DNA of 64,000 nucleotides, taken from contig CP030887.1 in NCBI GenBank assembly GCA_006969905.1, positions 3,026,730-3,090,729 on the forward strand, in the 5' to 3' direction. The notes under the pieces were generated by a model that did no database searches, had not been told where the DNA came from, and saw only the letters and a list, made by a program, of their open reading frames with translations. Shown in pieces: positions 1 through 38,617 of this stretch. Positions within the stretch are counted from its first letter, which is position 1, and each line of letters begins with the position of its first letter. The position numbers were made by a program, and so were the translations under genes. Source of the DNA: Balneolaceae bacterium. Lineage in GTDB: Bacteria; Bacteroidota; Rhodothermia; Balneolales; Balneolaceae.

Positions 1-501
1 AAATATGACAAAGCAAATTTTGGAGATTCTCCAACGGCTATTCAAATCTGGAATAGTTCTGCAATGGTATTTAAGACATTTATAGTCAATCACCCATTAG
101 ATCAGGAAAAGCATCTTGTTCATGCCACCTTGGAAGGCCCAGAAGGTGCCGTTTATTACCGTGGTGAAGCACAGCTAAAAAATGGTAAATGTACCGTAAC
201 TCTTCCCGATTACTTTGAGGCTTTTACCAGGAAAGAACAGCGAACCATAATTCTCACAAATATCGATGGCTTTGACAGGATTGCGGTTAAAAGTATTGAT
301 GGTGAAAAGATCAAAAATGGAACATTTGTTGTCATTTCTGAGAATCCTGATTCCACGCAGAAATTTGACTGGGAAGTAAAAGCGGTAAGATCTGATGGCC
401 CAGCATTAGAAGCTGAACCAGATAAAAAAGACCATTTGGTAGGTGGCTTTGGACCATACACATTTGAGATAGCAAAGCGAAAGCATGAAGAAAGAAATTA
501 A
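1..501 (+). CDS. C-terminal part of a tail-fibre-like / surface protein (5' partial)
   Basis: The reading frame is open from base 1, so the gene begins upstream of the window; the ATG at 64 is probably internal. The 166 visible residues contain a C-terminal module with the pattern KTFIVNHPLDQEKHLVHA, then LEGPEGAVYYRG, an ELPDYF-like segment (TLPDYFEAFTRKE), and a closing FDWEVKAVRSD. From memory, this pattern occurs at the C-terminus of tail-fibre-like and other trimeric stalk proteins, often just before an S74-type chaperone domain; no S74 domain follows here. The stop lies 20 nt before the first giant gene, so it is likely the promoter-proximal part of the same transcription unit. What the rest of the protein is cannot be seen. 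The module match is recollection, not a search. Confidence 0.7.
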   Translation, partial: KYDKANFGDSPTAIQIWNSSAMVFKTFIVNHPLDQEKHLVHATLEGPEGAVYYRGEAQLKNGKCTVTLPDYFEAFTRKEQRTIILTNIDGFDRIAVKSIDGEKIKNGTFVVISENPDSTQKFDWEVKAVRSDGPALEAEPDKKDHLVGGFGPYTFEIAKRKHEERN

Positions 502-521: not shown

Positions 522-3500
522 ATGTCAACCAATATCTTATTAGTACCAATACAACTGGACGCGTTCTATGCAGATGGAACTACTGAGCTGGCAGCGCCTT
601 TGGCTGATTTTACCAAGTTGCCTTATTATTCTTACGATCCACCTTCAGGTTTAGCTACTCAACCTAAAGCCGGTATGCTTACCAGGCTCAAGCGTATGGT
701 TGGTATGGCAGTACCGCCGCCTCCGCCGCCACCTCCCCCAAAAGGAGGTGGAGTTAATGGCGATCATACTTTTTTGAGTGATACAGTTTTTAGGTCTCCC
801 AATCCTTCCTTTAAAGGTTCGGATGATACTTGGACTCCTCAAAAAGGCTTACACTTGCATTGGGCACTGCCCGATGCACTCACAGCGAGCAGAAAAGATC
901 CAAAAAGTGATGGGAAGTCACGCTTTCCACAAGTTCCAAATCGTTGGATGGTGGTTCTGTCAACAAAAAGTGGCGCTACCTGGACAGAGCAAAATGCCTG
1001 GGTAGTAGAAAGTGATTACCTATATCCCGATCCTAAAACCAACCCAAAATCTTGTGGAATAAATGCTATCTCGTTTCCAATTGCTCCACCAGAGGTATTT
1101 CAGCAACTGTTGGATACCCCCGTTCCCCCACCAGAGCATAATCCAAGTACACAAGATGTAACCAACTATCCTTTTTATTACCAGGCTCCGTTTCGCTGCA
1201 TGGGAAGAAATGAACCACTTAAAACCTGGCAGGGTGATACTAACCAAAATGAATATTTACCTCAATACAACCCAGCGGGCTTAACTGCTGTTGGTTATGG
1301 ACACCCTTTATTTGCCGCTATTTACTCTAACTGTTTTAGCGTATTTGGATTTCACGATGACCTAAGTTCCGGGTCTTACCCACGCAGATATGATCTTATT
1401 GGTTGGTATGATGATGAGGATACAGACTGCTTAACACTTTTTCAAAATCTTGCGCCGGGAACTTCTGCCTGGGATGCCCTTAAAGCAGAATATAACTGGT
1501 CCAGTACTGATGAAAGCGGAAACCTTCCCGCTCAAAGTGTGTACTACTCCAGGTTGGAGATGAATGCGCCGCTGACTGGTAGCATGCCTTCGGGTACATC
1601 AACTTTGACTGTGGGTAATACTGCTACAGAAGCGTTATCGGCTTACCTTTCGCAAACCTTACAAAGCGACCCGGCTGATCAGTTAATTGTGGAAGAACAA
1701 TTAGAAGCTATGGGACTTCACCCTAAGCTTGGAGTCGAAGATGTTGACCTTGGTGCTAAATTCAGAGAAGCCCGACATGATAAGGGATTCAAAAAAGTTA
1801 ATGGAGGTAGCTTGTGGTCAGTACGGGCAAAAAGCACTACTACTTCGGCATCAACCCCTACTCAGGATCAAAACTCGGAGGTTACTCTACCTGATGGATT
1901 AGCACACTTACTTAATAAGGTAAATATACTACAAGCTGGATATGACGCTTCCTGGGATAATATTAATTCGTTGAGACGTCGTGCTTTTGCCGACTGGTAC
2001 CGTTTAGAATATCAGCGGGTTACCGAGCATACAACCGGACCCCAATTACCCTCCATCAATGACATCCTGGCCTACTCGCAGGATAGTGTATTAAAGCCTA
2101 TGCAGGAGTTAGCAGCTGCTACAGGTCAAATTAACTACAGTACTGATAACACAGGAAAAGCAACAATTACAGTTGAAGACACGGGTCGGCAGTATGACCT
2201 TACTGTTCAATTCAGTATTGCACAGCAATTATTGCAGGCTATAAATAATCTAAGCCAGCAACTTGGGTTTTATAATGCTGGAAAAGCTGCCCAAGCTGCA
2301 AAACTTGAATACTACCTGATTCGTAAAGGAGCCCCTCGTTTTTATGCCCCTACCGACCCTGCGGTATTACTGGATGGTGATGCATTGGTAATGAGCAATA
2401 GATATGGGAATAGCGAAACACTGGAATGTGGATTATGTGCTGTTACAGAAATAAAAAACTCGTTAACCGATACTCTACGCAGTAATGGATTATCATCCGG
2501 TGGTGCTTTCAGCACCATATTGGACGCAATTGATAAGCAGATTCAAGGTAATGGATTAGGTTTCAAAAGCCAGTCTTCACAACCCTGGCATCCGGTTTCT
2601 CTGGAATGGTCGAGCCAGGTTTGGCCGGAAAAAAGAAATACAAGCGTTGGGTTAGCAGGTGAAGGAATTCAGTACGGGGTAGACTTTGTGAGCGGAACTT
2701 ACGAAGTGGATGTGGACGCCACTGATTTAAAGATCAAAGAAAAGCCTTATGGGCTAGCAAACCCTGAGACTCCGTATGATTACACGGGCAGGGTTGTGTT
2801 AGTATCTCATGCTCCTGATAATATGCAGAACTCTATCAAAGGCTATCTGATGCCTTTAACGTTACAAAATCTGAAAACCGGTGGCATCAGAAGTCAGGTA
2901 ATTGATGATGAAACAGATTATCAATACGACCTTCAATTATTCACATGGGCTAATACAATATTTGGCATTGCAAAACCTCCTTTTTTGGGAAACCTGAAAG
3001 ATCCCTCAACTCTTACGCCATCTGAAATAACACAGCAGAAAAACGAAATTGCTACATGGATGGGAATGCAATATCCGTTTGTAGAAGAAGTAAATAATAA
3101 GAAACAGCTAATTGATCTTGGTACTCTTGTGTCAAACCACTCTGATTGGAGCAGTATCAGACCCGTGATATTAGACGGAGCCAAGTTAGGTCTGTTTAGT
3201 TCCCTCTCTACAGCTGAACAAGCAAAAGATCCTCTAGTAACTGCAGTAAATGCCTACAATACATTAACCGGTAAATCTTTGCTATCCCAGGCATTAAGTG
3301 GCTTTAATGATGCATTGCTAACCCAGGAGCGTGAGTTTCAGCTCCCTGTTTGGGATTGGCGGGTTATTAATATTGAAGAACAGAAATCCTACACACGGGA
3401 TTTAGCCAGGAACTTGGATGGTATTCACACAGCACCCGTGTTTGATGGTGCCTTCCTTCCAATCAGATCGGGAGTTATGCAAGTTTCGGGGTTAACAGTA

Positions 3501-4757
3501 GTGGATTCATTCGGACAGTACTTACCTCTTAATTATGGAGGGCCAGCTGCTACAAAAAAATCAGAGCGAATGACCATACTTAGTAATGTAGCAGCTTCAG
3601 TAAGTACACCTTCAAATATAGCAACAACTGCTGAAAACCAGAATTACCTGTATTTACCGCCCAGAGTTACCCAGGAAACAAGGCTTAATTTCCGGTGGCT
3701 GGCAGCTGATATGGGAAATGCCTCTGGTATTGGAGATGAGCCGGAAATGAATGACCACCCGGCAACTACCCCTGTATGTGGCTGGGTTTTACCTAATAAC
3801 TTAGATGGCAGTCTCGCGATTTATTCTGCTGATGGTTCTGCACTTGGTTCGTTAGTTCAAAGTGATGTTGGTGGTACATTTTCGGTTGTTTGGGAATCAG
3901 CTCCGGGTACTAATAATTATACTCCTGTATCAAAACTGCCAAACCCACATTTATACGATTTTGTATCGAATATCATTGCATGGGGATCAGGAAGTAAGAG
4001 TACCTGGCAGGACTTTCTATCCAGCATTAATACTGCACTCCAAAACATCGATCCGAAAAGTTTTGCCCAGCACCCCGCTTTATCGTTGCTTATGGGAAGA
4101 CCCATAGCATTAGTACGTACAAGCCTTCAAATTCAAACAAAAGGCTACCCTGATATTGATCAAACTGTTGAGGCATTTAACTATGATCAAAAGAATAACT
4201 TATTCACTCGCCTTACAAATGGGTTTGATAAAGTAACTATTCCAATACGACTTGGCGAAGCCAAACAGCTTAATGATGGTTTGGTTGCCTATTTTGTAGA
4301 AGACGGACAGGGAGGTTTTACGCCCGGACCTAACAGCTTGGCTCATTTCCCTGAACTGGAGCAAATCGGTGCTGTTGCTGATACGTTAAGCCTTACATTA
4401 TCGGACGATCCTATGAAGCTGACCATGCTGGTTGACCCTCGTGGTTCCGTGCACGCAACCTGTGGGTTCCTACCCACAAAACAAATCAGTATTCCACCTG
4501 ATCAGTTTGCAAAGGTTCTGAGTACCATGTCGGTCACCTTCCTTACTTCTCCGGTCATTACAACGAAGCAAAGTGTAAAATATCCGCTTCCGGCTGAAGC
4601 AGGTTATGGCTGGTCCTGGTTAGACCGGCCTACCGGTTTTACCTGGAATCGTGTAGCAGATATTCAAAATACCTCACGGGAAGCTATCTACGAACAGCAA
4701 CGAATCCTGGAAGGCTGGTTGAAACTAAGCCCCCAAACTGAGAAAGAGATAAACTAA
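522..4757 (+). CDS. Giant cytosolic-type protein with HWALPDALT motif (1411 aa), unknown function
   Basis: First of five closely packed large genes. There is no signal peptide or membrane segment. The N-terminus (about residues 1-64) leads into an uninterrupted run of nine prolines (residues 65-73) and a KGGG linker. The conserved-looking core follows: LHLHWALPDALT near residues 110-121, a PNRWMVVL segment about 20 residues later, YGHPLFAAIYSNCFSVFGFHDD, and a YDLIGWYDDE segment. I recall these signatures from large uncharacterised proteins of actinobacteria, myxobacteria and other bacteria, but know no assigned function. The protein looks mixed alpha/beta, rich in Ser, Thr, Asn and Tyr, with no recognisable catalytic motif. 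ATG at 522 is the first start after the preceding stop. An intact frame of this length argues that the gene is maintained. Role is unknown; a structural or scaffold component is only a guess. Confidence 0.85.
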   Translation: MSTNILLVPIQLDAFYADGTTELAAPLADFTKLPYYSYDPPSGLATQPKAGMLTRLKRMVGMAVPPPPPPPPPKGGGVNGDHTFLSDTVFRSPNPSFKGSDDTWTPQKGLHLHWALPDALTASRKDPKSDGKSRFPQVPNRWMVVLSTKSGATWTEQNAWVVESDYLYPDPKTNPKSCGINAISFPIAPPEVFQQLLDTPVPPPEHNPSTQDVTNYPFYYQAPFRCMGRNEPLKTWQGDTNQNEYLPQYNPAGLTAVGYGHPLFAAIYSNCFSVFGFHDDLSSGSYPRRYDLIGWYDDEDTDCLTLFQNLAPGTSAWDALKAEYNWSSTDESGNLPAQSVYYSRLEMNAPLTGSMPSGTSTLTVGNTATEALSAYLSQTLQSDPADQLIVEEQLEAMGLHPKLGVEDVDLGAKFREARHDKGFKKVNGGSLWSVRAKSTTTSASTPTQDQNSEVTLPDGLAHLLNKVNILQAGYDASWDNINSLRRRAFADWYRLEYQRVTEHTTGPQLPSINDILAYSQDSVLKPMQELAAATGQINYSTDNTGKATITVEDTGRQYDLTVQFSIAQQLLQAINNLSQQLGFYNAGKAAQAAKLEYYLIRKGAPRFYAPTDPAVLLDGDALVMSNRYGNSETLECGLCAVTEIKNSLTDTLRSNGLSSGGAFSTILDAIDKQIQGNGLGFKSQSSQPWHPVSLEWSSQVWPEKRNTSVGLAGEGIQYGVDFVSGTYEVDVDATDLKIKEKPYGLANPETPYDYTGRVVLVSHAPDNMQNSIKGYLMPLTLQNLKTGGIRSQVIDDETDYQYDLQLFTWANTIFGIAKPPFLGNLKDPSTLTPSEITQQKNEIATWMGMQYPFVEEVNNKKQLIDLGTLVSNHSDWSSIRPVILDGAKLGLFSSLSTAEQAKDPLVTAVNAYNTLTGKSLLSQALSGFNDALLTQEREFQLPVWDWRVINIEEQKSYTRDLARNLDGIHTAPVFDGAFLPIRSGVMQVSGLTVVDSFGQYLPLNYGGPAATKKSERMTILSNVAASVSTPSNIATTAENQNYLYLPPRVTQETRLNFRWLAADMGNASGIGDEPEMNDHPATTPVCGWVLPNNLDGSLAIYSADGSALGSLVQSDVGGTFSVVWESAPGTNNYTPVSKLPNPHLYDFVSNIIAWGSGSKSTWQDFLSSINTALQNIDPKSFAQHPALSLLMGRPIALVRTSLQIQTKGYPDIDQTVEAFNYDQKNNLFTRLTNGFDKVTIPIRLGEAKQLNDGLVAYFVEDGQGGFTPGPNSLAHFPELEQIGAVADTLSLTLSDDPMKLTMLVDPRGSVHATCGFLPTKQISIPPDQFAKVLSTMSVTFLTSPVITTKQSVKYPLPAEAGYGWSWLDRPTGFTWNRVADIQNTSREAIYEQQRILEGWLKLSPQTEKEIN

Positions 4758-4769: not shown

Positions 4770-7700
4770 ATGCCCAGCAATTTTGGAACTTTATTTACCT
4801 ACTCCGGCCCCGCTGGACAAGATGGGTTTTATAAAATTCTTGCCCCCTGTGAAAATTCGATGAATTGTCATCAGGCAATGCTTGAACTGTTTATGAATGC
4901 TCTTAAGTTGTCAAGTATTCGCTACCGGACAGGTTCATTTCCAAGCCCTTCTCCAATCCCTTCTATAGATTCAGAAGCCAAACTGAATGATTTACTTCAG
5001 ATTATTCCTGAAGATCTACAGGATCCTTTGTCCCAGGTTATGTATGAACAATATGAAGTGGACAGCGACACGGGCACTATTGGCAACAATGCCTGGTACA
5101 TAAAAACTTATGCTGACGCTGCAACGAAAGCCACTTTGCAGACTTCCGTTGACCAAGTCCGTTCCTATAATTATGCTTTATTTTATAATGAGTTGTTAGG
5201 TGAATACGGTACTAAAGGATGGGCTGGCATACCAGCAGCTATCCCGCTAACCACCCCTCAAAGCCCCCCAGGCAAAGCTGCTGTATTAGCAGCAATTGCC
5301 ACTCTGGCTACCTGGATACGTGCAAGCGACCCAAAACTTGTTGCACTAACTATTCTACGAGCAAAAACAGCTGTCCAGATTCTCAACGACCTTTATGGAG
5401 CTGTTCCATTGGCTGATGTCTCAACCATTTTATTTACTCGTGCATTGGTTAAGCAAATCCAAAGTAGCGGAGGTACTCAGGTAACAGCAACCCGCAAACA
5501 TGCTAAAACTGTTTTTTTTGAAGAAGTACAGGCAGCTTTAGGCAATGCTGCCTCTATATGGCAAACAACAGCAAGCTTAAAAAAACTGGCTGATCAGATT
5601 CGGGCAAATCCCCCAAGTGAAATTAACAAAACCCCTTCTGAAGTACTTATCACCTTCAGCCAGGTCATAGAAGTATTCGACATGGCCTTGTCTGATGCCA
5701 CCACTACAGCTCATGCTAAAACAGATATCCTGAATATACTAACCTCCATTAACGGTAAAACAACCAGTACTCCGGATTATTTGTTAACACAACTTCAAAA
5801 TACCTGTGACATCCTGAAGGTAGCACTCAACCCAGACCCTTTAACGCTGGATGCATGGGTTGTAGAAATAAATGAAGAAATACCTACAACTGTTCATTAT
5901 TCTGATATTGACGGATTGATGGAGCTCGTCCTGGATCAAATTACGCAAATACCCTTAACCTATAGTGGTGCTGCCGTTAGTTTTTATGGATTCAGTAACT
6001 ATGATGATATAAAGTTCAAAGATCGCATTGTCAACATTCCTGGCGGTAACCCAGCTACTACAGACACAATAACAGTAAGCGCAGACGCTGCAGAGAATGG
6101 AACAGCATATAGCAGACCTATATTTGGTGTGTTTACAAAAGGCGCTCAAAATGAAACTTATTTGAAGTTCTTCAATATATCGCCCATCCCAAATGGCACA
6201 TTTTACTTTACGGATCCAAAGAATCCACAGCAGGTAAATCAAAACTTTTTCCCTACTGCTGATCCAGCAACTACATTGACGTTCAACTTTAGTTTAGTCA
6301 CTATAAATGGTTTGAAAAAGGTACCCGCCGGTGGAATTGGACCATATCCTGAAGGCCGGTCGTACAAAAAAGTAACCGCAAGTGGTAGTACCAGTAAGCA
6401 AGTCTTTTTTGACTGTATTAGAACACTTTCGAAATGGAAGAGTTTAGAAGGAAAGCTTAAATATGATGTACTCTATCAAACTTCCGTAAGTCCGTCTGAT
6501 GCTGTCAGTATCACTACTCATTTGATTTGGTACATTAGTTCAGGAGACCTTACCAGAACTGACAATGTGGACGACAGCCTGTGCTTTTGGGCATGGCTGG
6601 CACCTACTGAAATCAAAGCAGCATATCCTCAAATTCCATCACTAATAGGGCTTCCTCCGGAGAGGAATTTGGATCGTTGTAGCAGCGTAGCGTTTATTCA
6701 GGCAAACCTTAACGAAAACCCTGCAGACGCCTCGCCGCCTGTTCAGCTTTTTGTAAACCGGGATCCAGGACCTTCAAGCGGTATCTATGTCCTTACCAAT
6801 TCACCTAGCTCAAGGTTACCTGCTGATATTGATAAGGTGTTGGATCGAGATTCTTCAAGTGCAGGTGCATCTGCTCCGTTAGCTGAGCAAGCAAGGAAAA
6901 TGTCATATTTTTTCAATTTCAGGTATTATCGAAAAATTGACCTGGAAGCAGGAAAGGTAATAAAATGGCTACCTGCTTCGAATAAGCCTAATACACTCGC
7001 TGATGGTATTGACCTAACAGCAAAATACAGACGTGACCTACCTGAAGGTTATGATCAGGTCATCGGCATTGAAACACCCATTTCATTTAACCTGCTGAGC
7101 AACATAGCATTCTTTAAAAGTTACACTGCACCCAATGCCACAGCAGGAATTTCCCTTAAGAACAAAGGTAATGACTTATTTCGTGCAAGAGGAAAAAGGC
7201 TGGCCGCCGGAAGTGTAATGGCAAAACTTAGAAATTATATTAATGTTACTCCTAAACCAGGATCCAATACCTCTCTTTCTGCTTCGCAAATGAGCAATTG
7301 GGAAATAGCCGAATCTAACAAGGCCCGGGAAGCCTGGCAAGGGTTAAAAAAAACAAGGAGAGACCGATTACCAACCGATCAGGAATGGTGCCATTTATTA
7401 GGCCATGGCGATGGTGGAGATGAACGTTTTGGCAACTTTGTAAGCGGTAGCTTTCACTGTAACACTGAACAACTCGCCATGGAGTCAAAAGGGAGAAGAC
7501 AAGTAACACAAAGCGAACCGAAAGGCACTTATACATTGAGAAGTACGGCTTATTTATTCAATGATGGCGAAAATTTACTATCCAGCAATTACCTGAATAA
7601 TGATCGTGCTTATGCCCAAATGAAAAAAGTTTATGCTGCATTAAGCAAACCTAAGGCCGGCCCCACCCTTCCTGATAAATCCGGTACCGTACTGCCCTTC

Positions 7701-7946
7701 GCGGCTTTTCTGAGGTATAAAATGTATGTCAACCCCTCAATAGGTGATGCAGCAGGTGCGCCAACAAGAGCTTCTTTTCAGAAACTGTTCGATTACATTT
7801 TTGAAGGGCAAAGTGAATTTATTGATCAGCATCAGTTTGCCATCATTAAATACGCAAGCTGGTTTTGTTTAGCCGGAGAGGACGCTTTTAAAGCATGGTA
7901 TGTAGAACAAACCGCAACAGCTGTAGCAGGAGATGCCGCGGAATAA
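4770..7946 (+). CDS. Large protein with C-terminal WCHLLGHGD/CNTEQ motif, copy 1 (1058 aa)
   Basis: Paralogue of the next gene; the two align end to end by eye. Shared features are an N-terminal CENSMxCHxxxLELFM segment (Cys27, Cys33, His34), a GNNAWYxxTYA segment near residue 105, a middle region ending in THLIWY and DDSLCFWAWLAP, and a C-terminal third with RARGKRLxAGSVMAKL. The most striking part is residues 872-905: WCHLLGHGD with His875 and His879, then GNFVSGSFHCNTEQLA with His896, Cys897 and Asn898. The spaced His/Asn/Cys pattern is reminiscent of beta-beta-alpha-metal (HNH-like) nucleases, but I cannot prove the fold. The final 60 residues (FEGQSEFIDQHQF, ASWFCLAGEDAF) are also conserved between the copies. 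No signal peptide. Starts 12 nt after the upstream stop, so probably co-transcribed. Confidence 0.85.
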   Translation: MPSNFGTLFTYSGPAGQDGFYKILAPCENSMNCHQAMLELFMNALKLSSIRYRTGSFPSPSPIPSIDSEAKLNDLLQIIPEDLQDPLSQVMYEQYEVDSDTGTIGNNAWYIKTYADAATKATLQTSVDQVRSYNYALFYNELLGEYGTKGWAGIPAAIPLTTPQSPPGKAAVLAAIATLATWIRASDPKLVALTILRAKTAVQILNDLYGAVPLADVSTILFTRALVKQIQSSGGTQVTATRKHAKTVFFEEVQAALGNAASIWQTTASLKKLADQIRANPPSEINKTPSEVLITFSQVIEVFDMALSDATTTAHAKTDILNILTSINGKTTSTPDYLLTQLQNTCDILKVALNPDPLTLDAWVVEINEEIPTTVHYSDIDGLMELVLDQITQIPLTYSGAAVSFYGFSNYDDIKFKDRIVNIPGGNPATTDTITVSADAAENGTAYSRPIFGVFTKGAQNETYLKFFNISPIPNGTFYFTDPKNPQQVNQNFFPTADPATTLTFNFSLVTINGLKKVPAGGIGPYPEGRSYKKVTASGSTSKQVFFDCIRTLSKWKSLEGKLKYDVLYQTSVSPSDAVSITTHLIWYISSGDLTRTDNVDDSLCFWAWLAPTEIKAAYPQIPSLIGLPPERNLDRCSSVAFIQANLNENPADASPPVQLFVNRDPGPSSGIYVLTNSPSSRLPADIDKVLDRDSSSAGASAPLAEQARKMSYFFNFRYYRKIDLEAGKVIKWLPASNKPNTLADGIDLTAKYRRDLPEGYDQVIGIETPISFNLLSNIAFFKSYTAPNATAGISLKNKGNDLFRARGKRLAAGSVMAKLRNYINVTPKPGSNTSLSASQMSNWEIAESNKAREAWQGLKKTRRDRLPTDQEWCHLLGHGDGGDERFGNFVSGSFHCNTEQLAMESKGRRQVTQSEPKGTYTLRSTAYLFNDGENLLSSNYLNNDRAYAQMKKVYAALSKPKAGPTLPDKSGTVLPFAAFLRYKMYVNPSIGDAAGAPTRASFQKLFDYIFEGQSEFIDQHQFAIIKYASWFCLAGEDAFKAWYVEQTATAVAGDAAE

Positions 7947-7956
7947 TTGATAACCT

Positions 7957-10900
7957 ATGCCTACAAATTTAGAAAGCTTTTTTACTTATAACGGAAAACC
8001 AGAAGAAGATGGTTTTTACAACCTTATTAAGGGTTGTGAAAACTCCATGTTGTGTCATAAGGTTATTCTTGAGCTCTTTATGGATGTTCTGAAAACCAAT
8101 AGTACTCTAAAACGCACAGGAACCTTTACACCAATACCTAACAAAATCCCAAATCAAAAAGATCTCGATGCTCTATTGGATTATCTACCCGAAGAGGTAA
8201 AAGACCCTATGGTGCAGGTTTTCTTCGAAGAATGGAACAATAGTCCGGATAGTGATGAGATAGGAAACAATGCCTGGTATGTGGAAACTTATGCCGGATC
8301 AATTGATGGCACTGGTGACTCTTCTTCTTTACAAGTAGCTGTAGATTTTGTTCGTGCTGCATACTATACCGAGGAATACAATAACCTACAGAAAATATAT
8401 AATGAGAAGGGATGGACTGTAACAGATATCCCGAATCCTTTACCCAATTCCGATATGCAGACCCCCCCTACTAAAACCAATGTCATTACTTTTTGCGGTG
8501 AATTGAGTGATTGGATTAAAGTGAATGATCCCGAAGTAATAGCACTAACCAATTTGCAAGATGCCACTACCTATGGAGATGCAGATGCCATCCTCACAGC
8601 AATTCTTGGAGCCTCTCCTATCGCTAATGTGGATACTACAGACTTTTGTACAGCTCTTCTAAATGAAATTGAAGCTACTAATAAGTCGGGTTTGCCTTCG
8701 TCTATTGGTGCAAGAAGACAACTTATAAGATCTTCACTAGCGGAAATAAATAAAGGCGGTTCCATCTGGAAAACCAGTGAATCTTTAAAAGCGCTTGCAA
8801 ATCAATATACTGGTAAAGATGAAGAATATTGGAGGACTAAAGTACCAAAAGCCTTTGACTTAATTAATCAACTGTTTTACCAAGGTTTAACTTTAGCCGA
8901 TCAAACCAATGTAGCAGCAGTAAGAGCATCTATTCTGGATATATTCAAAGATTTTCAGTCCTCATTCTCGGTAACTACCTATCTCTTTCAGGAGCTAAAT
9001 AATACTTGTTCAGAGCAAATCAAGGTTGTGAATCCTGACCTTGCAATGCTGGATGCGTGGATTGATGAAATTAATGAACCAATCCCTGACGCGATTCATT
9101 ATTCTAACATAGAATTATTAATGAAGTCCGTCTGTGATATTCTCGAAAGTATTCCACTAATATATAAAGGAAGCAATGCTAATCTCTTTTCATTTACCGA
9201 CTATGACAATATAAATGCCAAAGCGAATGCCTGTAGCTTTCCAGATGGTGAAAACTCATTAACCTCTGATGAATTAAATATTTTTCCTGATGCTGTTGAG
9301 TACGAAAACAACCCTCCAAGCCAAATAAAGAAACAGTTCCGCCCGGTTTATGGTATTTTTACTAAAGGAGAGGATTCCTATTTTAAGTTTTTTAATGTTG
9401 GATCGGTCATTACCGATGGTAGCTTTTATTTTGAAGATTCTTCAAACCCTACTTTAATAGAAACCAAGTATTACCAGAGTTCATCTGCTTCTGGCCCACT
9501 AAACATAGACCTGAGTGCATGCACTATAAATGGCAATAAAGCTACTCCTTTTGGAGGTGTCTCAGGTCTTACAAAAGAAGGTGTCCAAAATACGATACCC
9601 GGTGTTAAGGATTATAAAGAGCAAAAAGGAAAAAGTATTTCCAAACAAAATTTCTTTGCTGCAATCAGGCTCTTAACCAAATGGAAGGATTTAAAAGGCC
9701 AGCTTAGTTATGAAGTTCTCTACTCAACCATACCTGGTGAAGATAACTATGATACTCACCTTATCTGGTATGTTGCTTCTGGAAATTTAGATAGAACAGA
9801 TAAAGTTGATGATAGTTTGTTTGTTTGGGAATGGTTAGCTCCTGGTTCAGTAAAAGACAAATATCCAAATCTTTGGAAGTTTTTAGAACTTCCTGAAAGT
9901 CGCCAGTTGGTTCGTTCGAGCCCTTACGCTGATACCGCTAGTCTTGGAGGCACGACTGTCCGCATAACAGATTTATTCTCACTTGATCTCGCCGTATTTG
10001 GTTATCCCCTTGTATATATCAATGACGAACTATTCGTCCCTACCAATACGCCCAATACAAATTTACCGTATGCAATAGATCAAGTACTCGAACGGGCCGC
10101 AGGAACTTCTACTTCTCTTGATGATCTATCAGTCGACTTACTACAAATATTTAACTTTGCTTATTATAGAAAAGCAACAATGACTGGTAGTCGATTAAAA
10201 GTTATAAAATGGATACCAGCAAACCACCGGCCAAATAATTTAGATGATGGAATTGATCTGGGAGATGTTGGACAACCTCAAAATCTATCTGCCATTGGAA
10301 TAAGTCCGTCAATATCTTTTAGGAATAATAATAATGTAGAGTATTTTAAAAAATATACCGGATCTGATGGCCCTGCTCACACCTCCTTGAAAAATAAAGG
10401 GAATCCATTATATCGGGCCAGAGGGAAACGATTACCAGCAGGTTCTGTCATGGCAAAACTAAATGCTAGCAGAGCAACAGGCACTAGCGCTTTACCTATC
10501 AAAAGTTCTTCTCTATCTGCATCTGATTTTGGAGATTGGGTACTTTCGAATTCAGAGGATTATGTATTGCCTGAATGGAAAAAATTGAAAATGAATAACA
10601 GAAGCGATTTGCCCACTAATCAGGAATGGTGCCATTTACTTGGGCATGGTGATAGCGGTGACGAACGACTGGGTAATTTTGTGAGCGGCAGTTTTCATTG
10701 CAATACCGAGCAGTTAGCTATGGAATCAAAAGAACGGAGAAGTATCACACAACAAGCTCCTAAAGGTAAATATCACCTTCGTTCAACGGCCTATCTCTTT
10801 AACGATGATCATAAACTGCTTAAAGATGATTATTTAACCAATGATGCGGCCTACCAGAAAATGGTAAAAGTGTATAGTGCGCTACAGGTCAAAAAAGGAA

Positions 10901-11187
10901 AAACTATGAAGCTTACCGGGGCCGGCACTGTTATGCCGTTTGCTGCATTATTTAGATACAAAATCTATGGCAATTTTGACTCTGATGGGGATGATGCTGC
11001 AGCAGGCAGCCAGGTTGAGCTAAAACTCTTTGATCACATTTTCGAAGGCCAAAGCGAATTCATTGATCAACATCAATTCAATATCCTGAAGCACGCTGCC
11101 TGGTTCTGTGTTGCGGGGATGGATGCTTTTGACAAATGGTATAAAGAACGAGTAGTTGCGTTAAATGCAAAAATGGAAACTGAGTAA
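7957..11187 (+). CDS. Large protein with C-terminal WCHLLGHGD/CNTEQ motif, copy 2 (1076 aa)
   Basis: Second copy of the preceding family, 10 nt downstream of it. It keeps the N-terminal CENSMLCH segment at the same positions (Cys27, Cys33, His34), GNNAWYVETYA, THLIWY, DDSLFVWEWLAP, RARGKRLPAGSVMAKL and the C-terminal motif WCHLLGHGD (His893, His897) followed by GNFVSGSFHCNTEQLA (His914, Cys915, Asn916). The two copies are clearly diverged over most of their length and differ by small insertions, so this is an old duplication rather than a recent repeat. Retention of the same polar residues in both copies suggests a working metal or catalytic site in each. Two subunits of one complex, or two effectors with different targets, are both possible. 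No signal peptide, no membrane segment. Confidence 0.85.
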   Translation: MPTNLESFFTYNGKPEEDGFYNLIKGCENSMLCHKVILELFMDVLKTNSTLKRTGTFTPIPNKIPNQKDLDALLDYLPEEVKDPMVQVFFEEWNNSPDSDEIGNNAWYVETYAGSIDGTGDSSSLQVAVDFVRAAYYTEEYNNLQKIYNEKGWTVTDIPNPLPNSDMQTPPTKTNVITFCGELSDWIKVNDPEVIALTNLQDATTYGDADAILTAILGASPIANVDTTDFCTALLNEIEATNKSGLPSSIGARRQLIRSSLAEINKGGSIWKTSESLKALANQYTGKDEEYWRTKVPKAFDLINQLFYQGLTLADQTNVAAVRASILDIFKDFQSSFSVTTYLFQELNNTCSEQIKVVNPDLAMLDAWIDEINEPIPDAIHYSNIELLMKSVCDILESIPLIYKGSNANLFSFTDYDNINAKANACSFPDGENSLTSDELNIFPDAVEYENNPPSQIKKQFRPVYGIFTKGEDSYFKFFNVGSVITDGSFYFEDSSNPTLIETKYYQSSSASGPLNIDLSACTINGNKATPFGGVSGLTKEGVQNTIPGVKDYKEQKGKSISKQNFFAAIRLLTKWKDLKGQLSYEVLYSTIPGEDNYDTHLIWYVASGNLDRTDKVDDSLFVWEWLAPGSVKDKYPNLWKFLELPESRQLVRSSPYADTASLGGTTVRITDLFSLDLAVFGYPLVYINDELFVPTNTPNTNLPYAIDQVLERAAGTSTSLDDLSVDLLQIFNFAYYRKATMTGSRLKVIKWIPANHRPNNLDDGIDLGDVGQPQNLSAIGISPSISFRNNNNVEYFKKYTGSDGPAHTSLKNKGNPLYRARGKRLPAGSVMAKLNASRATGTSALPIKSSSLSASDFGDWVLSNSEDYVLPEWKKLKMNNRSDLPTNQEWCHLLGHGDSGDERLGNFVSGSFHCNTEQLAMESKERRSITQQAPKGKYHLRSTAYLFNDDHKLLKDDYLTNDAAYQKMVKVYSALQVKKGKTMKLTGAGTVMPFAALFRYKIYGNFDSDGDDAAAGSQVELKLFDHIFEGQSEFIDQHQFNILKHAAWFCVAGMDAFDKWYKERVVALNAKMETE

Positions 11188-11195: not shown

Positions 11196-14100
11196 ATGAA
11201 TACTCCACTACAACAAATCACTCCGGTTGGAGGAACATTAACACTTACTGCTGATGACCTTGGTAACTACGCTTACTCCGGCATAAGAAATGCGTTAAAG
11301 CTTACAAGTGATTTAAGCATTACAAATTGTACCATTCCTATTCCCGCTACTGCAAACCTTCTAATAGCTGAAGGGAATATTGCATCATTCTTAGGACAGG
11401 GACAGGCAACTATCAGGCTCTATTTGTTTGAGGTGGCTACTCTTCTGGATACCACTGAAAGACATGCAGTATTACTTTTCACCTCTTTACCAGCCGGACT
11501 GGATGTATCAAAATTTTTGAGCCCTTTCTGCAAAAATGCCAGTGGCACCTCTCTGCCTGCTGAGGTCACTGCATTGCAAACTCTTTCGTTCGATACCAGT
11601 GCCCCATACTTATTGTACTCAACCCTAGCTTATGATAATTCCTCGTATGTAAACCCGGTTTTTCCCCCTGAAAATGATACCACCTTATCAGCCCCAATTA
11701 AGAGCTTTATCCAAACTGTAAAAGCCGAACTCGCCCAAGGCTATTTATTTGAAGCTACGGCTCAATTGCAATCAACTATCACTATCCCACCTCCTTCCGG
11801 ATCGCCTGCTGGTACTCCTTCAACAACCATTGATTTATCAACCGTTTTAAAAGTTTTGGGACTGGATGCATTAGTAACCGCTAGTTTTAGCATTACGGGT
11901 CAACTTGAGTTTGAAAGAGCTTCGAGCACCTTAAATCTATTTCATCAAATTAATGCTTCGGCTACACCTGTTCCTTTAGATCCAACTATTAAAGCAGCGG
12001 GCATTGGTATCAATTTGGGATCAGGGGTTATTCAAATACCCACATTTATTCTTCAGGGCCAGCTAACGTTGGGAAGTACCCCATCTGATGTGGAAATGAT
12101 TTTTAGCCCGTATTTAGAACAGTTACAAGTTAAGTTTTCTCATTTACCTGATTTCGCTGATCTGGCGACCCATTTCACTGGAACATCACTAAACGATATT
12201 TTAGGTGGCTCACTTCCCGAAAATGCAATCTCCGATCTGGGTGCATTAGAAATCCTCTCGCTGGATCTGACCATTGCTCTGGATGCATTAAGTGTAACCG
12301 CTCTATCATTCAGTATTTCAACCGAGCATCCTTTGGCTCTTTTTGACGGAATTACGCTGCAACCTGCCCTTATTGTTTCCTTTACTGATCCATTCGCTTC
12401 CTACTATTCTGTAAATATTGACGTAGTTGGAAAATGGTTCTTCAAAAGTAATTCCCTTGATACCATACTTATGGTGCAACGTGGTCCAGTTGCTGCTCAG
12501 GACAGTACCACATTTATTGCCCGTATGGGTTTAGGTGCGGGTATCGATCTTATTGAGGTTGCAGCCTCCCTCTTTCATAAGCAGATATCGGGATTGCCTA
12601 CACTTACATTATCTGACGTTGAAGTAATTGCTCAAAAAACAGGAAGTGGAAATTCTGTAAAGGAATCCGTCAACCTATCTCTTGATGTGTCTTCAGGTTG
12701 GAATCTGGATGGTGTTGATATCGAAATCGAAGACTTAAACTTATCAGTAGGTTTTGAAAAAGAAAGCCCTAATTCTAACTGGCAGGCAAGTGATGTATCA
12801 GCACAGGGTACCCTGGAAATCGGGTCTCTCTTCTTTAACCTGGATGCTGAATACGATGCTTCTGAAAAATCATGGACGTTTAATGGCGGTACGCTTCCAG
12901 GAGAGAAAATTAATCTTGGGGATTTATTAGCAGATATTACCCAGGCTTTAAAATTAGATCCACCGGCAGATTTCCTTGATCCCTTCAAAACGGTAGAGAT
13001 AACAGGTTGCTTCATTGAATACCAAACCAGCAGTACAAGTTCTTCAAGTTGGAAAATCACCGTTTCAACAGATTTTGTGTCGGGTTCCGCATTCAACGGT
13101 ATTGGGTTAGATGAAATAGTAATCAGTTTTGCCAGAAATGGAACAGGCACTTCATTTTCTTTTGATGCCACTGCCCCAGCAACTCAGGGCGCTGATGATT
13201 TAACTACTTATTTGAAAAGTTCTTTAGGAGTTGATGTTGATTTACCAACAGCGCTTACAGGTACTGATATAAAGCTAAAAGGGCTGAGTGCTTCTTATGA
13301 TTCAGCAACTAAAAACTACAGCTTTATGGCCTACCTCAACTTTGGCAGCAATGCCCTTGTTCAGCTAAGTATTGATATTACCACTCAAACGCTTAATGGC
13401 ACAAGTACAAAAGACTATTACCTGGGAGGCTTTTTGATTTTCAACCCGGGTGATCCTGATCAATTTGAGTTTACTCTGGATTTGGTCAAATCAGGAACTG
13501 CGAGCAACCTCGTTGCTTCCTTTCAGTCCAGCACAACCAGCAAAGGTATTACCCTCAATAAGCTGGTTCAGGCAATTGATCCTACAGCTCCCGGCCTGGA
13601 TGCTTACGAAATTGAAATTAAAGATGCTCTTTTTGCGCATAGTGGTGCAAGTGGTGTTAATCCTGCCAAGTCTTTATTTGCTGTAGATATGGGTGCGCAG
13701 GTAAACCTCTCTAAATTAGGAGATTTACCTTTGATCGGGCATGAATTGGAAACCGCAAGTAGTTTAGACCTTGCGTTTCAGGTAAGTTATGCCACAGGTG
13801 ATTATTCCGTAGCAGAAATTCAGGCTATCAATAAACTTATTGGTGATCCAAGTTTCAGGTTCCCTGAAACAGTCATTGTAAAAGGTACTCCGTCCATTTC
13901 CACATCCATGCGTGTCGGCAACGACCAGCTAATTGATATGACCGTGCCTGTTACTGCCAATAATGACGGAAGTCTGTCTCCTTCAGGTGGAACCAACATC
14001 CCCTCTTCAGATCCAAATACCTCTTCAACCGGAGGAAGTGATGGAATTACCTGGTTCCCATTAAATAAGGCTTTTGGTCCTATGAGAATAAATCGTGTTG

Positions 14101-16211
14101 GACTTGCCTTCGATAAAGCAAGTACAAGTATTGTAGGTTATCTGGATGGAGCCGTAACTATTGGCCCACTTACCTTTGATTTGTTAGGATTAGATGTAGG
14201 TGTACCACTTACTGGAACCGATAAATTCCATCCTACCTTTGGAATACAGGGCTTAGGACTTGAGTATCAAAATGGGCCACTAAATATTGGAGGAGCCCTA
14301 TTTAAAGGAATAAATAATGGATTAACTGAATTCGATGGTTTTGTTACCGTTAGTACCGAATCTCTTGAAATAGGAGCTGTTGGTTCTTTTGCACAAATGA
14401 ATGATGGCCATGACTCTTTATTTGTGTATGCGGTACTTGGAGAACCTCTTGGTGGCCCTGCATTTTTCTTTGTCACTGGTTTAGCAGGAGGGTTCGGTTA
14501 CAACCGGAAACTACTGCCCCCTCCTATTTCTGAAGTTCAGAATTTTCCATTGATAGCAGAAGCTATGGCTCCATCTCCTCAACCTCAGGCGGGTGATTTA
14601 AGTGGTGTAAAAGATTATGTTGCGAAACAGCTACAATTAATGCAAAAAGATATTGTACCATCTTCTGGTGAATACTTTTTAACTGCTGGAATAAAGTTTA
14701 CTTCATTCGAGCTGATAAATGGATTTCTATTAGCTGTAGTACAGTTTGGTAATGAGTTTAGGATTGACATTTTAGGTCTGGCTAATGCCGTTCTACCGCC
14801 TGATGACAATAGTGACCCAATTGCTGAAGCACAATTAGCCATTCTTGCGCATTATGTACCTTCAGAAGGATCCATATGGGTTCAGGGACAGTTAACACCT
14901 AATTCATTTATCCTATCCAGAAACTGCCATTTAACAGGTGGCTTTGCATTAGCAGCCTGGGATGGCGGCCCACATGAGGGAACATTTGTTGTGAGCATAG
15001 GTGGCTATGCAAAAAATTTCCAGGTTCCAGATTATTACCCACAACCTCCCCGGGTTGGATTTAACTGGCAGGTAAGTTCACACCTCAATGTTAAAGGTGG
15101 TGGATACTTTGCCCTTTTACCTCATGCCTTGATGGCTGGAGGAAGCCTGGATGCCGTATGGCAAAGTGGCGATGTAAAAGCCTGGTTTTTGATGGGAGCA
15201 GATTTTCTGATAGAATGGAAACCCCTTCACTATGAAGCCGATATCTATGTTGATCTGGGGGCTGAATTAATCATTCATTTTTTTGGCACACATCACGTAT
15301 CTATCGATGCCAGCGCAGACCTTGAAGTTTGGGGACCCGAATTTGGAGGCCACGCCAGGATTACTGTGCACGTTATCGGAATCCATTTCCACTTCAGTAT
15401 AGATTTTGGCGCGTCTTCATCAAAAAAACCAAATTTGAAATGGTCTGAATTTCAGAGCTCTTTCTTGCCTTCAGATAATAAGCAGTGGTTAGGTGTTAAT
15501 ATTCAGGATGGTTTATTGCGAACAGTAAAAGGAAAGTTACCTGACAATTCTGAAGTAGATGTTTGGATAGTTAAAAGGGATAAATTAAACCTGAGTACCT
15601 CAGCAGCGTTGCCTGTGAAGTCTGCGGAGTTTAAGCTAGATGGAACTGCAGCTACTGCACCATCAATTACTCCTACAACCCCCGGAATTGCGCCTATGGA
15701 TGTTGGCACTATCGATACCTCAAAACATACTATATCTATTACGAAGGTTGTAGCCGGTACCGCTTCACAAACTGTGGCTGGCATTACAGTTCCAAGCGAG
15801 CAATTAAAGCTGGTACCTACTGCCAAAAAAATACCCAGTGCGATGTGGGGGCATACTCGCAGTCAACCTCTTAACCCTACTCCCGGAACTGATGTATTAG
15901 ACTCTGTATCTGGTTTTTCTATAGTACCAACACAGGAAGCTTATGACGATCCGGATGCAATAACTGTTGACAGGTCTTCATTAGCTTATGAGACAGAACA
16001 GCTAAATGGGTTTGAATGGGTTTCCAGTACTGGTTCATTCCAGTCTGTGACTTCTTCGTGGACAGCCATCGAAGCTTCAATTCAAAGTACAAACTCAATT
16101 CGGACTACGGCCTTAGAAAAAATGGGCTTTACCGATTTTAAAGAGAATTTTAATCAGCCATTAGAACTGGATAACCCTGAGTTACCAGAACTAGGTACGC
16201 TCATTAATTAA
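11196..16211 (+). CDS. DUF6603-type giant beta-rich protein (1671 aa)
   Basis: Starts 8 nt after the upstream stop. Roughly residues 200-950 look like repeated beta-rich modules, each with a short leucine-rich amphipathic segment (LNDILGGSLPE, LGDLLADITQALKL, LTTYLKSSLGVDV, LNKLVQAIDPTAP) followed by strands of the form 'xIxGxxLSYD'. After a low-complexity Ser/Thr/Gly/Asn linker (about 935-955) comes a conserved C-terminal region: GPMRINRVGLAFD (near 958), FGIQGLGLEYQNGPL, GGFGYNRKLLPPP (near 1100), YFALLPHALMAGGSLDAV (near 1303), FLIEWKPLHYEA and LEVWGPEFGGHARI (near 1375). I recognise this as the DUF6603 pattern, from memory. Function is unknown. The tandem beta modules suggest a long fibre or wall-like structure. 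No signal peptide or C-terminal sorting signal is visible, so a route out of the cell, if any, is not evident. Confidence 0.85.
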   Translation: MNTPLQQITPVGGTLTLTADDLGNYAYSGIRNALKLTSDLSITNCTIPIPATANLLIAEGNIASFLGQGQATIRLYLFEVATLLDTTERHAVLLFTSLPAGLDVSKFLSPFCKNASGTSLPAEVTALQTLSFDTSAPYLLYSTLAYDNSSYVNPVFPPENDTTLSAPIKSFIQTVKAELAQGYLFEATAQLQSTITIPPPSGSPAGTPSTTIDLSTVLKVLGLDALVTASFSITGQLEFERASSTLNLFHQINASATPVPLDPTIKAAGIGINLGSGVIQIPTFILQGQLTLGSTPSDVEMIFSPYLEQLQVKFSHLPDFADLATHFTGTSLNDILGGSLPENAISDLGALEILSLDLTIALDALSVTALSFSISTEHPLALFDGITLQPALIVSFTDPFASYYSVNIDVVGKWFFKSNSLDTILMVQRGPVAAQDSTTFIARMGLGAGIDLIEVAASLFHKQISGLPTLTLSDVEVIAQKTGSGNSVKESVNLSLDVSSGWNLDGVDIEIEDLNLSVGFEKESPNSNWQASDVSAQGTLEIGSLFFNLDAEYDASEKSWTFNGGTLPGEKINLGDLLADITQALKLDPPADFLDPFKTVEITGCFIEYQTSSTSSSSWKITVSTDFVSGSAFNGIGLDEIVISFARNGTGTSFSFDATAPATQGADDLTTYLKSSLGVDVDLPTALTGTDIKLKGLSASYDSATKNYSFMAYLNFGSNALVQLSIDITTQTLNGTSTKDYYLGGFLIFNPGDPDQFEFTLDLVKSGTASNLVASFQSSTTSKGITLNKLVQAIDPTAPGLDAYEIEIKDALFAHSGASGVNPAKSLFAVDMGAQVNLSKLGDLPLIGHELETASSLDLAFQVSYATGDYSVAEIQAINKLIGDPSFRFPETVIVKGTPSISTSMRVGNDQLIDMTVPVTANNDGSLSPSGGTNIPSSDPNTSSTGGSDGITWFPLNKAFGPMRINRVGLAFDKASTSIVGYLDGAVTIGPLTFDLLGLDVGVPLTGTDKFHPTFGIQGLGLEYQNGPLNIGGALFKGINNGLTEFDGFVTVSTESLEIGAVGSFAQMNDGHDSLFVYAVLGEPLGGPAFFFVTGLAGGFGYNRKLLPPPISEVQNFPLIAEAMAPSPQPQAGDLSGVKDYVAKQLQLMQKDIVPSSGEYFLTAGIKFTSFELINGFLLAVVQFGNEFRIDILGLANAVLPPDDNSDPIAEAQLAILAHYVPSEGSIWVQGQLTPNSFILSRNCHLTGGFALAAWDGGPHEGTFVVSIGGYAKNFQVPDYYPQPPRVGFNWQVSSHLNVKGGGYFALLPHALMAGGSLDAVWQSGDVKAWFLMGADFLIEWKPLHYEADIYVDLGAELIIHFFGTHHVSIDASADLEVWGPEFGGHARITVHVIGIHFHFSIDFGASSSKKPNLKWSEFQSSFLPSDNKQWLGVNIQDGLLRTVKGKLPDNSEVDVWIVKRDKLNLSTSAALPVKSAEFKLDGTAATAPSITPTTPGIAPMDVGTIDTSKHTISITKVVAGTASQTVAGITVPSEQLKLVPTAKKIPSAMWGHTRSQPLNPTPGTDVLDSVSGFSIVPTQEAYDDPDAITVDRSSLAYETEQLNGFEWVSSTGSFQSVTSSWTAIEASIQSTNSIRTTALEKMGFTDFKENFNQPLELDNPELPELGTLIN

Positions 16212-16230: not shown

Positions 16231-18291
16231 ATGAGTACAATTAAGCTCGCAACCCCTGCAAAACCACAAGGTAAAATTACTTTTTCTTCTTTCAATTTAC
16301 CTGCGCTTGATGACGGATTATATAAAATAGAGGTCGATCATGATTTTCAAGCTGAGGCCGGGAGTACAAAACCAACGATTCCTACTCAAACTAGATATTT
16401 TGCAGCGATTGGCCCCAGGTATTCACTTGATCCCAAAGAAATATCTACCCAGTTTCCTCCTCCAAAAACCAGTGGTAATTATTACAACGTTTTGCCTCAC
16501 ATCATGTTTAATAGAGCAATTTTACCCTGGGAGCGTAAACTTGACCCTTCCAAACCTAATACACCATGGCTAACTCTGATCTCGTGCACTAATGATGAAA
16601 TGATAGGGTGGCAAAAATCTACTGCTAATAAAAAACTATTAACTGTTTGTACCAATACGCTTACAGAGGTGTGCCAGGATGCTCAAACCAACAAAATTGT
16701 ATTCCCGAAATTGTCTGACATCACTCTTTTACCCGGAGAATCTTCATCAGAGCCTGTAAACTATATTGACATTCCTGAACCATTGCTACAACTGGTTTTG
16801 CCTACTGAAGATGAATTACCGACACTGGCTAATGTAAGGCAATCAGCAGATCCAGCCCCTTCTGGAAGTGAAAACCCTAAATATCCGGTACTTATTTGCA
16901 ATCGGCTTCCTCAGCCAGGTCAGGAAAACACCGTATTTTTGATTTCTTTGGAAAATCGAATGGATGTTTATACGCAATTAGCGTCAGCAACACCTTTAGC
17001 AGGCGTTCCCAGCCCATCATCTAATCCTAAAATTTACCGTTTTGCTGTATTAAACAATTGGCGTTTTGCCTCAGTAACTCCCAATTTATCGTTTGAGGAA
17101 TTACTTCTTGACGCTAATAAGTTTAAAAGTACCACTACAGGTTCGTTCCGCCTTCCTAGTATAGGAGATGTAAATGCCGACTCATTTCTGGAGAAGGGAT
17201 ATGTACCCCTTGAGCACCAAACCAGACAAGGGAATAACATGGTAAGTTGGTATCGTGGTCCTTTTTTACCCGGTGTGGCGCCTGTACCAACCAACCCTCC
17301 GGCACCTTCTTCTATTACTTCTCCTGATAGCCTGGTACGCGTTTATTCTGAAATTGGAATGTTTGATGTAACCTATGCCAGTGCCTGGAATATCGGGCGA
17401 AGCTTGATACTCGAAAATAAAAGAGTTTCTCAAGCATTATTTGAGTGGAAAAGAGCCTGTGTTCAGGCAGAAAAAGCATCCCTGCCTTCCCATCTTCCTT
17501 TTAATAAAGCAATTGCTCCACCTTTGCCTGACTTGGTAAAAAACTGGTTTATAAATCTTGGACGCCTTGAACAAATACCTTTTAATTATCTTGTAGCAGA
17601 CCAAAAATTATTACCTCAGGAATCTATACAGTTCTTTTCGGTAGATGCCCAATGGGTTCAATTATTACTACGTGGAGCATTTTCGATTGGAGACATTGCT
17701 TCCAGTGATGAAGCGATAGAAGATGAATTGTTCAAAAAAATCCCAATCCCCACCGGATTGAGTGGTTTTTTATTACGGTCCAAAGTCGTAAGCGGATGGC
17801 CTCATTTATTAGTAAATGGCTTTGATACTGAACCACCAGTTGGAACTAATTTACCTTTCGAAAGCGGGGCTACTCCTCTAACCCAGTACCGCTATACGCT
17901 TGGAAAAGATACACTGCTCTGTTTATTTGAAGGCTCAATAAAAAGTGTAGAAGTTTACTTACATCCTGAAACCATCCATTTTGGTATCGACTACTACCCT
18001 GAAGACGCTGCACATGGGATTCCCTCTCCATGCTATTTGAAACTTTTACGCGATGCCTCAGGGAACCCAATTCAACCTACCACATTGCCTTGTGGAACTG
18101 ACAGATCAAAAGAGTTTGATGTTAATAATTGGGTAAGAATACCTTTTCGTTTTGACAACTGTGGGGTTATAGACTCCTCAACTTTGGTAAAGAGGTTAAC
18201 CAGCGCCATTCCAGGTACAACTATTACTCCTGCTGAGTTTGCCTATCAAATGGTGGAAGGAGTTCCAAAAGTTCGATTTACTGCCGGGTGA
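16231..18291 (+). CDS. Uncharacterised 686-aa protein with LPWER / LPQESIQFF motifs
   Basis: Last gene of the cassette, 19 nt after the DUF6603 gene. Conserved-looking blocks in order: RYFAAIGPRYSLD, FPPPKTSGNYYNVLPHI with NRAILPWER (about residues 80-103), PWLTLISC, NRLPQPGQENTVFLISLE (near 230), SWYRGPFLPG (near 343), FDVTYASAWNIGR (near 380), and LLPQESIQFFSVDAQW with GAFSIGD (about 467-490). I recall the same set of blocks in uncharacterised bacterial proteins of several phyla, often near the HWALPDALT family; that co-occurrence is memory and needs a search. No transmembrane segment, signal peptide or enzyme motif. Its C-terminal half (TQYRYTLGKDTLLCLFEG to VRFTAG) resembles a beta-rich domain. 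Transcription probably ends in the 104-nt gap before the convergent dfrA. Confidence 0.85.
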   Translation: MSTIKLATPAKPQGKITFSSFNLPALDDGLYKIEVDHDFQAEAGSTKPTIPTQTRYFAAIGPRYSLDPKEISTQFPPPKTSGNYYNVLPHIMFNRAILPWERKLDPSKPNTPWLTLISCTNDEMIGWQKSTANKKLLTVCTNTLTEVCQDAQTNKIVFPKLSDITLLPGESSSEPVNYIDIPEPLLQLVLPTEDELPTLANVRQSADPAPSGSENPKYPVLICNRLPQPGQENTVFLISLENRMDVYTQLASATPLAGVPSPSSNPKIYRFAVLNNWRFASVTPNLSFEELLLDANKFKSTTTGSFRLPSIGDVNADSFLEKGYVPLEHQTRQGNNMVSWYRGPFLPGVAPVPTNPPAPSSITSPDSLVRVYSEIGMFDVTYASAWNIGRSLILENKRVSQALFEWKRACVQAEKASLPSHLPFNKAIAPPLPDLVKNWFINLGRLEQIPFNYLVADQKLLPQESIQFFSVDAQWVQLLLRGAFSIGDIASSDEAIEDELFKKIPIPTGLSGFLLRSKVVSGWPHLLVNGFDTEPPVGTNLPFESGATPLTQYRYTLGKDTLLCLFEGSIKSVEVYLHPETIHFGIDYYPEDAAHGIPSPCYLKLLRDASGNPIQPTTLPCGTDRSKEFDVNNWVRIPFRFDNCGVIDSSTLVKRLTSAIPGTTITPAEFAYQMVEGVPKVRFTAG

Positions 18292-30841: not shown

Positions 30842-30952
30842 AATTTTAACTATCTGTAAATGTGAGTAAGTGAGTGATTGGCATTAAATATTTGTCCTTT
30901 ATATTAACTAAATTTAAAGCCGCCCAAGGATAAGAAAATTTCAACACATTTG

Positions 30953-31972: not shown

Positions 31973-31973
31973 G

Positions 31974-35092: not shown

Positions 35093-35137
35093 TTCCTGAA
35101 TCTATAAGTACCAATCAATAATAATCGGGGTACAACT

Positions 35138-35728: not shown

Positions 35729-35744
35729 AGATATATCAAAACAA

Positions 35745-35775
35745 AAAAGCCGATGCATTGAATACATCGGCTTTT
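35745..35775. terminator. Bidirectional terminator between methyltransferase and atpC
   Basis: AAAAGCCGATG (35745-35755) and CATCGGCTTTT (35765-35775) form a perfect 11-bp stem with a 9-nt loop. A run of A on the left and T on the right let it work for both converging transcripts. Confidence 0.92.
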
Positions 35776-35807
35776 CCTTTATGTAGAACAGGATAAAACC
35801 AAAACCT

Positions 35808-36071: not shown

Positions 36072-36077
36072 ACTTCC

Positions 36078-37697
<1,620 letters not shown>

Positions 37698-37769
37698 TCA
37701 AAAGGAGAATATCACATCAATATGTAATTCAATTAAAGAAAAAGCCTAGGTATGATTCAATAAAAAGTC

Positions 37770-38495: not shown

Positions 38496-38565
38496 CCATA
38501 CTTCACTTGAAGATTTACACTAACCAAAAAAGGCAAAGCTTCTTCATGTAATCTTCACATTAGAA

Positions 38566-38610
38566 ATAGATTTTCATCCCCTTTTAACTAAGGCCTTTAA
38601 GAAAATCTAT
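38566..38610 (+). promoter_or_regulatory. Inverted repeat in the leader of the 7-TM gene
   Basis: ATAGATTTTC (38566-38575) and GAAAATCTAT (38601-38610) are perfect 10-bp complements with a 25-nt loop that itself holds the palindrome AAGGCCTT. The right arm ends 7 nt before the ATG at 38618, so the structure could mask the start region or be an operator. Confidence 0.4.
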
Positions 38611-38617
38611 CTTAAGT

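Follow-up and report, generated by a model that had tools for sequence, protein, structure and literature searches.

A conserved Cys-His...Asn...Cys-Asn motif in a gene pair upstream of DUF6603 as a candidate active site of the HNH/His-Me-finger type

What is the role of a short His-, Cys- and Asn-rich motif that two large proteins encoded side by side have kept while the rest of their sequence diverged? The question is raised by two tandem genes, here named HCN1 and HCN2, in a 64,000-nucleotide stretch of a Balneolaceae genome (the window). The original prediction took the motif for a nuclease-like or metal site whose spacing recalls HNH enzymes, in which case the cassette would contain two effectors. 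Both genes precede a DUF6603 gene, and the position directly upstream of that gene is referred to below as the slot.

4770..7946, + strand: HCN1, 1058 aa, first slot gene; the candidate nuclease domain is its C-terminal ~260 aa
7158..7943, + strand: C-terminal domain of HCN1, the module common to homologues
7383..7484, + strand: motif EWCHLLGHGDGGDERFGNFVSGSFHCNTEQLAME in HCN1, beginning at residue 872
Codon starts in HCN1, + strand: C874 7389, H875 7392, H879 7404, N889 7434, H896 7455, C897 7458, N898 7461, E905 7482
Full codons in HCN1, + strand: H875 7392-7394, N889 7434-7436, N898 7461-7463, E905 7482-7484
7957..11187, + strand: HCN2, 1076-aa paralogue of HCN1, second slot gene, with the DUF6603 gene directly downstream
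10624..10725, + strand: motif in HCN2, beginning at residue 890, with H893 at 10633-10635

The residue numbers that the original prediction gave for HCN1 are correct, and its start coordinate for the motif lies one base out of frame. Its claim that the motif is nearly identical in two otherwise diverged proteins of ~1060 aa holds: HCN1 and HCN2 are 45% identical across 1034 aligned pairs in an alignment spanning their whole length (43% by BLASTP), whereas identity reaches 86% in residues 863-906, where the top-identity 44-residue windows of the pair fall. The same codon is used at 24 of the 57 identical residues of the segment 863-932, and third positions of four- and sixfold codons agree at 23% in this segment versus 31% gene-wide. 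Silent sites are thus randomised or saturated under a protein identity of 86%, which points to old and strong selection on the motif at the protein level. Gene conversion or recent duplication of HCN1 and HCN2 was considered and rejected on account of this saturation. No further HCN copy was found in the window genome.

Close peptide patterns, scanned against 84,980 species genomes, yielded three more members, found in bacterium Co_bin.359 (L001), in candidate division KSB1 (L002) and in a metagenome-assembled genome labelled Magnetospirillum (L003). The family is very rare; no members beyond these were detected in viral contigs, phages, plasmids or ~920 genomes (195 related to the window genome, 394 from its phylum, 82 from the phylum of L002 and 246 from that of L001). 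Across the five sequences, with identity down to ~30%, C874, H875, H879, N889, H896, C897, N898 and E905 do not vary, and the same holds for G883, E885, F890, G893, S894, T899, E900, Q901, L902 and A903 and, beyond the motif, Y928, R982, Y983, D1008, Q1014, E1016 and D1019. In BLASTP comparisons with HCN1, L002 is similar over the C-terminal ~385 residues, while L003, the most distant member, aligns in the motif region alone (58% over 62 residues), so that the motif emerges as the most stable part of the C-terminal module. The original prediction had singled out His875, His879, His896 and Asn898 and had named the alignment of distant homologues as the check on them; all four are retained in each of the five members, and none lacks a key residue.

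We next asked how this pattern compares with known nucleases, for which reference members of PF13930, PF01223 and canonical HNH (PF01844) were fetched. A position-specific matrix was built from five non-redundant canonical HNH references only, all of one orthologous group. With this profile the motif site ranked first among 844-1037 positions in all five full-length members, in the same register, with z values of 4.3-5.3 relative to shuffled versions of the 40 residues of the site; none of 19 unrelated conserved blocks taken as decoys had one shared best position in even three of five sequences. The register had been seen in the data prior to formal testing. The HNH offsets H(0), GG(+7,+8), N(+14), C(+22) and N(+23) correspond without a gap to H875, G882-G883, N889, C897 and N898, and the H-N-[HN] residues are present at HNH spacing as H875, N889 and N898. 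With a background of 468,000 positions, this matrix gave 6-12 bits for PF13930 members and 0.5-8.8 bits for HCN members, with roughly a dozen unrelated positions at 4 bits or above. Scores equal to that of HCN1 or HCN2 arise by chance at roughly 1 per 30,000-40,000 positions, and significance therefore rests on the agreement among homologues, which are themselves not independent.

A similar picture was obtained with PF13930, whose profile placed the HCN site first in four of five members and third in P0004. PF13930 members align to the motif without a gap (e.g., ERGHLLGAQFGGEGSRRNIVPLFPQANDPGMKAYE vs EWCHLLGHGDGGDERFGNFVSGSFHCNTEQLAME), and their H-GG-N-N-E signature is in register in HCN, ungapped to L060, L059, L075 and L086. 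An initial PF13930 profile was non-discriminating (P0003 scored -7.3, shuffle maxima had a mean of -9.9 and sd of 3.6) and was replaced by one with softer pseudocounts together with the HNH profile. PF01223 (DRGH) was tried as a relative of the HCN domain and gave no convincing alignment. Profile-profile comparison by hhalign fell near the expected register at a non-significant probability (<=2.7%), and HNH against PF13930 fails likewise. The HCN proteins had no match in Pfam, NCBIfam, PADLOC or PDB sequence profiles and no meaningful match in PHROGs; PF01844 gave none at E up to 1 or 10, with HMMER filters discarding most weak matches, and no PF13930 score exceeded the Pfam cut-off. AlphaFold2 models of the C-terminal domain, run with the five-sequence alignment, had a mean pLDDT of 39.0 and 43.9 for runs of 279 and 198 residues, respectively, too low to be used, and resolved no more than approximate secondary structure.

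The HNH signal is therefore what a distant His-Me-finger family would give, although moderate in strength. The HNH-type spacing put forward in the original prediction is supported by the first rank of the HNH profile in every member and by the invariance of the triad H875-N889-N898 among homologues. The assignment of residues has to be revised in detail: N889 had not been listed, and H879 and H896 are additional residues which, like E905, are family-specific relative to HNH. In HCN, the acidic, His or Asn metal ligand that precedes the catalytic His is absent, and C874 takes its place in five of five members. This replacement, shared by all members, could indicate that the nuclease-like domain is degenerate or inactive and binds nucleic acid but does not cleave it. 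Yet no member has lost the His or Asn at the catalytic positions, and purifying selection has preserved the motif better than any other part of the protein, which would be unexpected for a dead active site; we hold such inactivity to be highly improbable.

The genomic surroundings of the pair bear on its role as well. Besides HCN1 and HCN2, the operon comprises the following genes.

1..501, + strand: C-terminal part of a fibre-like protein of 669 aa that starts upstream of the window (L013 13222-15231)
522..4757, + strand: A1411, 1411 aa, conserved core, without a family match
11196..16211, + strand: DUF6603 protein, 1671 aa, conserved core (PF20248, E=5.3e-137)
16231..18291, + strand: T686, 686 aa, conserved core, without a family match

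The order is two fibre-like proteins, A1411, HCN1, HCN2, DUF6603 and T686. The first fibre-like protein carries a Peptidase_S74 chaperone domain, and the tip of the second, the 669-aa protein, matches phage families phrog_17490 and phrog_28536. The two fibre-like genes (L013 11020-13188 and 13222-15231) look mostly identical in their N-terminal halves and differ in their C-terminal tips, an S74 chaperone in one and a phrog_17490-like domain in the other; the 145-aa open reading frame at 64-501 is merely the end of the second gene. In L001 and L002, genes of the same kinds occur together with a single HCN gene in each. We found no PAAR, VgrG, sheath, baseplate, T6SS, contractile-injection or immunity gene in the operon and no small gene between its genes, and proteins P0001-P0006 had no PADLOC match.

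DUF6603 loci were fetched from 11 other genomes and five plasmids. The slot gene immediately precedes DUF6603, shares its strand and lies within ~150 bases of it or overlaps it; L043, L047 and L048 had no clear slot gene and were left out of the count. Hydrolase-type domains, of six unrelated kinds in all, are encoded in ten of the 15 non-HCN slots (seven over the Pfam cut-off; the GIY-YIG, M23 and S. clavuligerus MBL matches below it), and five have no recognisable enzyme domain.

MBL (metallo-beta-lactamase fold): the second operon of the window genome (L014), Embleya (L044), S. clavuligerus (L045)
Subtilase S8: L035, L037, L038
Peptidase M64: L040
M23-like: L041, below cut-off
PhoD-like: L042
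GIY-YIG-like: L032, under the Pfam cut-off at E=0.001, showing GLYII...VVYAGK
DUF5636: L033
Unrecognised: L034, L036, L039, L046

The second DUF6603 operon of the window genome (L014, G000:C1:3214000-3233900) contains A1411-like, S74 fibre, DUF6603 and T686-like genes, and its slot is occupied by a 596-aa protein with a ComEC-like MBL domain (PF00753 E=3e-8; ComEC E=6e-17), which also matches PADLOC LmuA (E=1e-17) and Avs1a (E=8e-8). More generally, the MBL cargo of non-HCN DUF6603 cassettes matches the PADLOC models LmuA, Avs1a and RTasMBL. In L032, a 166-aa protein (8026-8526) with the GIY-YIG-like signature GLYIIQDSDGDVVYAGK is encoded directly 5' of DUF6603. Loci L034-L038 and L040-L042 make up a second group of DUF6603 operons, with a DUF6603 protein of ~1130-1210 aa, a different and marginally T686-like downstream partner, and a slot mostly occupied by peptidases (S8, M64, M23-like). 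In L048, a plasmid of Streptomyces sp. NBC_01276, genes for a CHAT-domain protein and CATRA lie a few kb upstream of a DUF6603-T686-like pair. A scan of viral contigs detected no DUF6603.

Enzymes of the S8, M23, M64 and PhoD types are often exported. A simple hydropathy scan revealed no obvious N-terminal signal peptide in slot or core proteins (L041 is truncated by the end of its contig, and for L045 and L046 the start is uncertain), so these proteins seem to be produced as components of the cytoplasm.

The presence of known hydrolases in the slot elsewhere also backs the HNH-like reading. The same slots include peptidases and a PhoD-like phosphatase, and this raises the question whether the HCN domain could be some other metal-dependent hydrolase, e.g., a peptidase or phosphatase, with a merely convergent resemblance to HNH. 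The invariant H879 and H896 lie outside the HNH signature and no HMM places the domain in HNH, as such a reading would have it; against it stand the ungapped H-GG-N-CN spacing with its first rank in all five members, and Pfam found no peptidase or phosphatase in the domain. We regard this explanation as unlikely. The motif might otherwise be non-catalytic, serving as a structural zinc site or as a docking surface that fastens HCN to the DUF6603 complex. Cys and His can bind structural zinc, C874 stands in place of the usual HNH metal ligand, and the HCN proteins, whose genes neighbour DUF6603, carry the motif close to their C-terminus. However, the other slot proteins beside DUF6603 lack the motif, which is thus not a general docking signal, and a structural zinc site would account neither for the HNH spacing nor for the invariance of N889, N898 and E905. 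A purely structural or docking role seems quite improbable to us.

Taken together, we find it fairly probable that the motif is the active site of an unrecognised HNH/His-Me-finger (beta-beta-alpha-metal) nuclease domain and that the HCN pair is the cargo of the slot, likely a conflict effector. We read HCN as a putative new HNH/His-Me-finger branch in which Cys precedes the catalytic His. In His-Me-finger nucleases the sole invariant residue is the general-base His, and a single metal is bound by the last H of HNH together with an Asn, Asp, Glu or His just preceding the catalytic His (PMC10902643). By analogy with HNH enzymes, H875 would act as the general base and N889 as the loop-shaping HNH asparagine, while N898, perhaps with C874 or E905, may hold the single divalent metal. 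C874 would sit at the second metal-ligand position, where so unusual a residue might either prefer zinc or bind no metal at all.

The pair occupies the slot directly 5' of the DUF6603 gene, where related operons carry unrelated hydrolases, and is probably the exchangeable nuclease cargo of a system not described so far. Its likely role would be that of a nuclease effector in biological conflict, with DNA or RNA as target, acting either inside the cell in suicide or defence or following release of an assembled complex. The two effectors anticipated in the original prediction fit this picture, both as candidates.

A broader proposal, on which we are evenly divided, is that DUF6603 operons constitute an undescribed modular conflict/effector class with one exchangeable hydrolase slot, with the HCN pair as founders of a new His-Me-finger family. 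We propose DUF6603, T686 and A1411 as its constant core, often accompanied by phage-fibre-like S74 proteins, and Cys-His...Asn...Cys-Asn as the pattern of the family; both proposals derive from sequence comparison. One candidate reading is an intracellular defence or suicide system, in support of which the MBL cargo resembles interchanged effectors and the conflict genes CHAT and CATRA occur near the DUF6603 gene of L048. Another is a released particle or complex, for which the phage-fibre-like proteins with S74 chaperones and the M23 cargo resembling peptidoglycan peptidases speak. Under either candidate reading the HCN proteins would be enzymatic cargo. The literature that we searched contained no text mentioning DUF6603 or the letters of the motif; the HCN active site may be new within the known His-Me-finger superfamily, and the modular cassette is possibly a new system. 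If this is right, a conserved patch without a database match turns into a nuclease active site that can be tested at named residues, DUF6603 marks a modular system with a cargo that differs between genomes, and the gene upstream of DUF6603 offers a simple route to new effectors.

Among known systems, HNH (PF01844) shares with HCN the H-GG-N-C-N spacing without a gap. HCN differs in having no HMM match, Cys instead of Asp or His preceding the catalytic His, no CxxC pair, and extra invariant residues (His at +4 and +21, Glu at +30), and its domain is embedded in proteins of ~1000 aa. With Endonuclea_NS_2 (PF13930), which includes DNA/RNA non-specific endonucleases and toxin tips, the ungapped register H-L-[LI]...GG.....N[LI]V......N......E is shared, but the His is preceded by Cys in HCN and by Gly in PF13930, and here too there is no HMM match. 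The T6SS DNase V2c has its catalytic H384 and its metal-binding H408 24 residues apart (PMC10902643), compared with a spacing of 23 residues in HCN. V2a (Tox-AHH) and V2c (Tox-SHH) of the same study share with the proposed HCN site a predicted two-residue X-H start and a metal-binding residue 23-24 positions later, and they are toxic cargo proteins, as HCN would be; in HCN, by contrast, the later residue is Asn, Cys precedes the His, and PAAR, VgrG and an immunity gene are missing. Finally, Lamassu, AVAST, Hachiman and DRT exchange effectors with one another (PMC12799240), and these systems combine a constant core with exchangeable effectors, as is proposed for the DUF6603 cassettes. Their core genes are absent here, where the core instead consists of DUF6603, T686 and A1411 with fibre-like proteins, and the cargo of a DUF6603 cassette is a separate gene located 5' of DUF6603.
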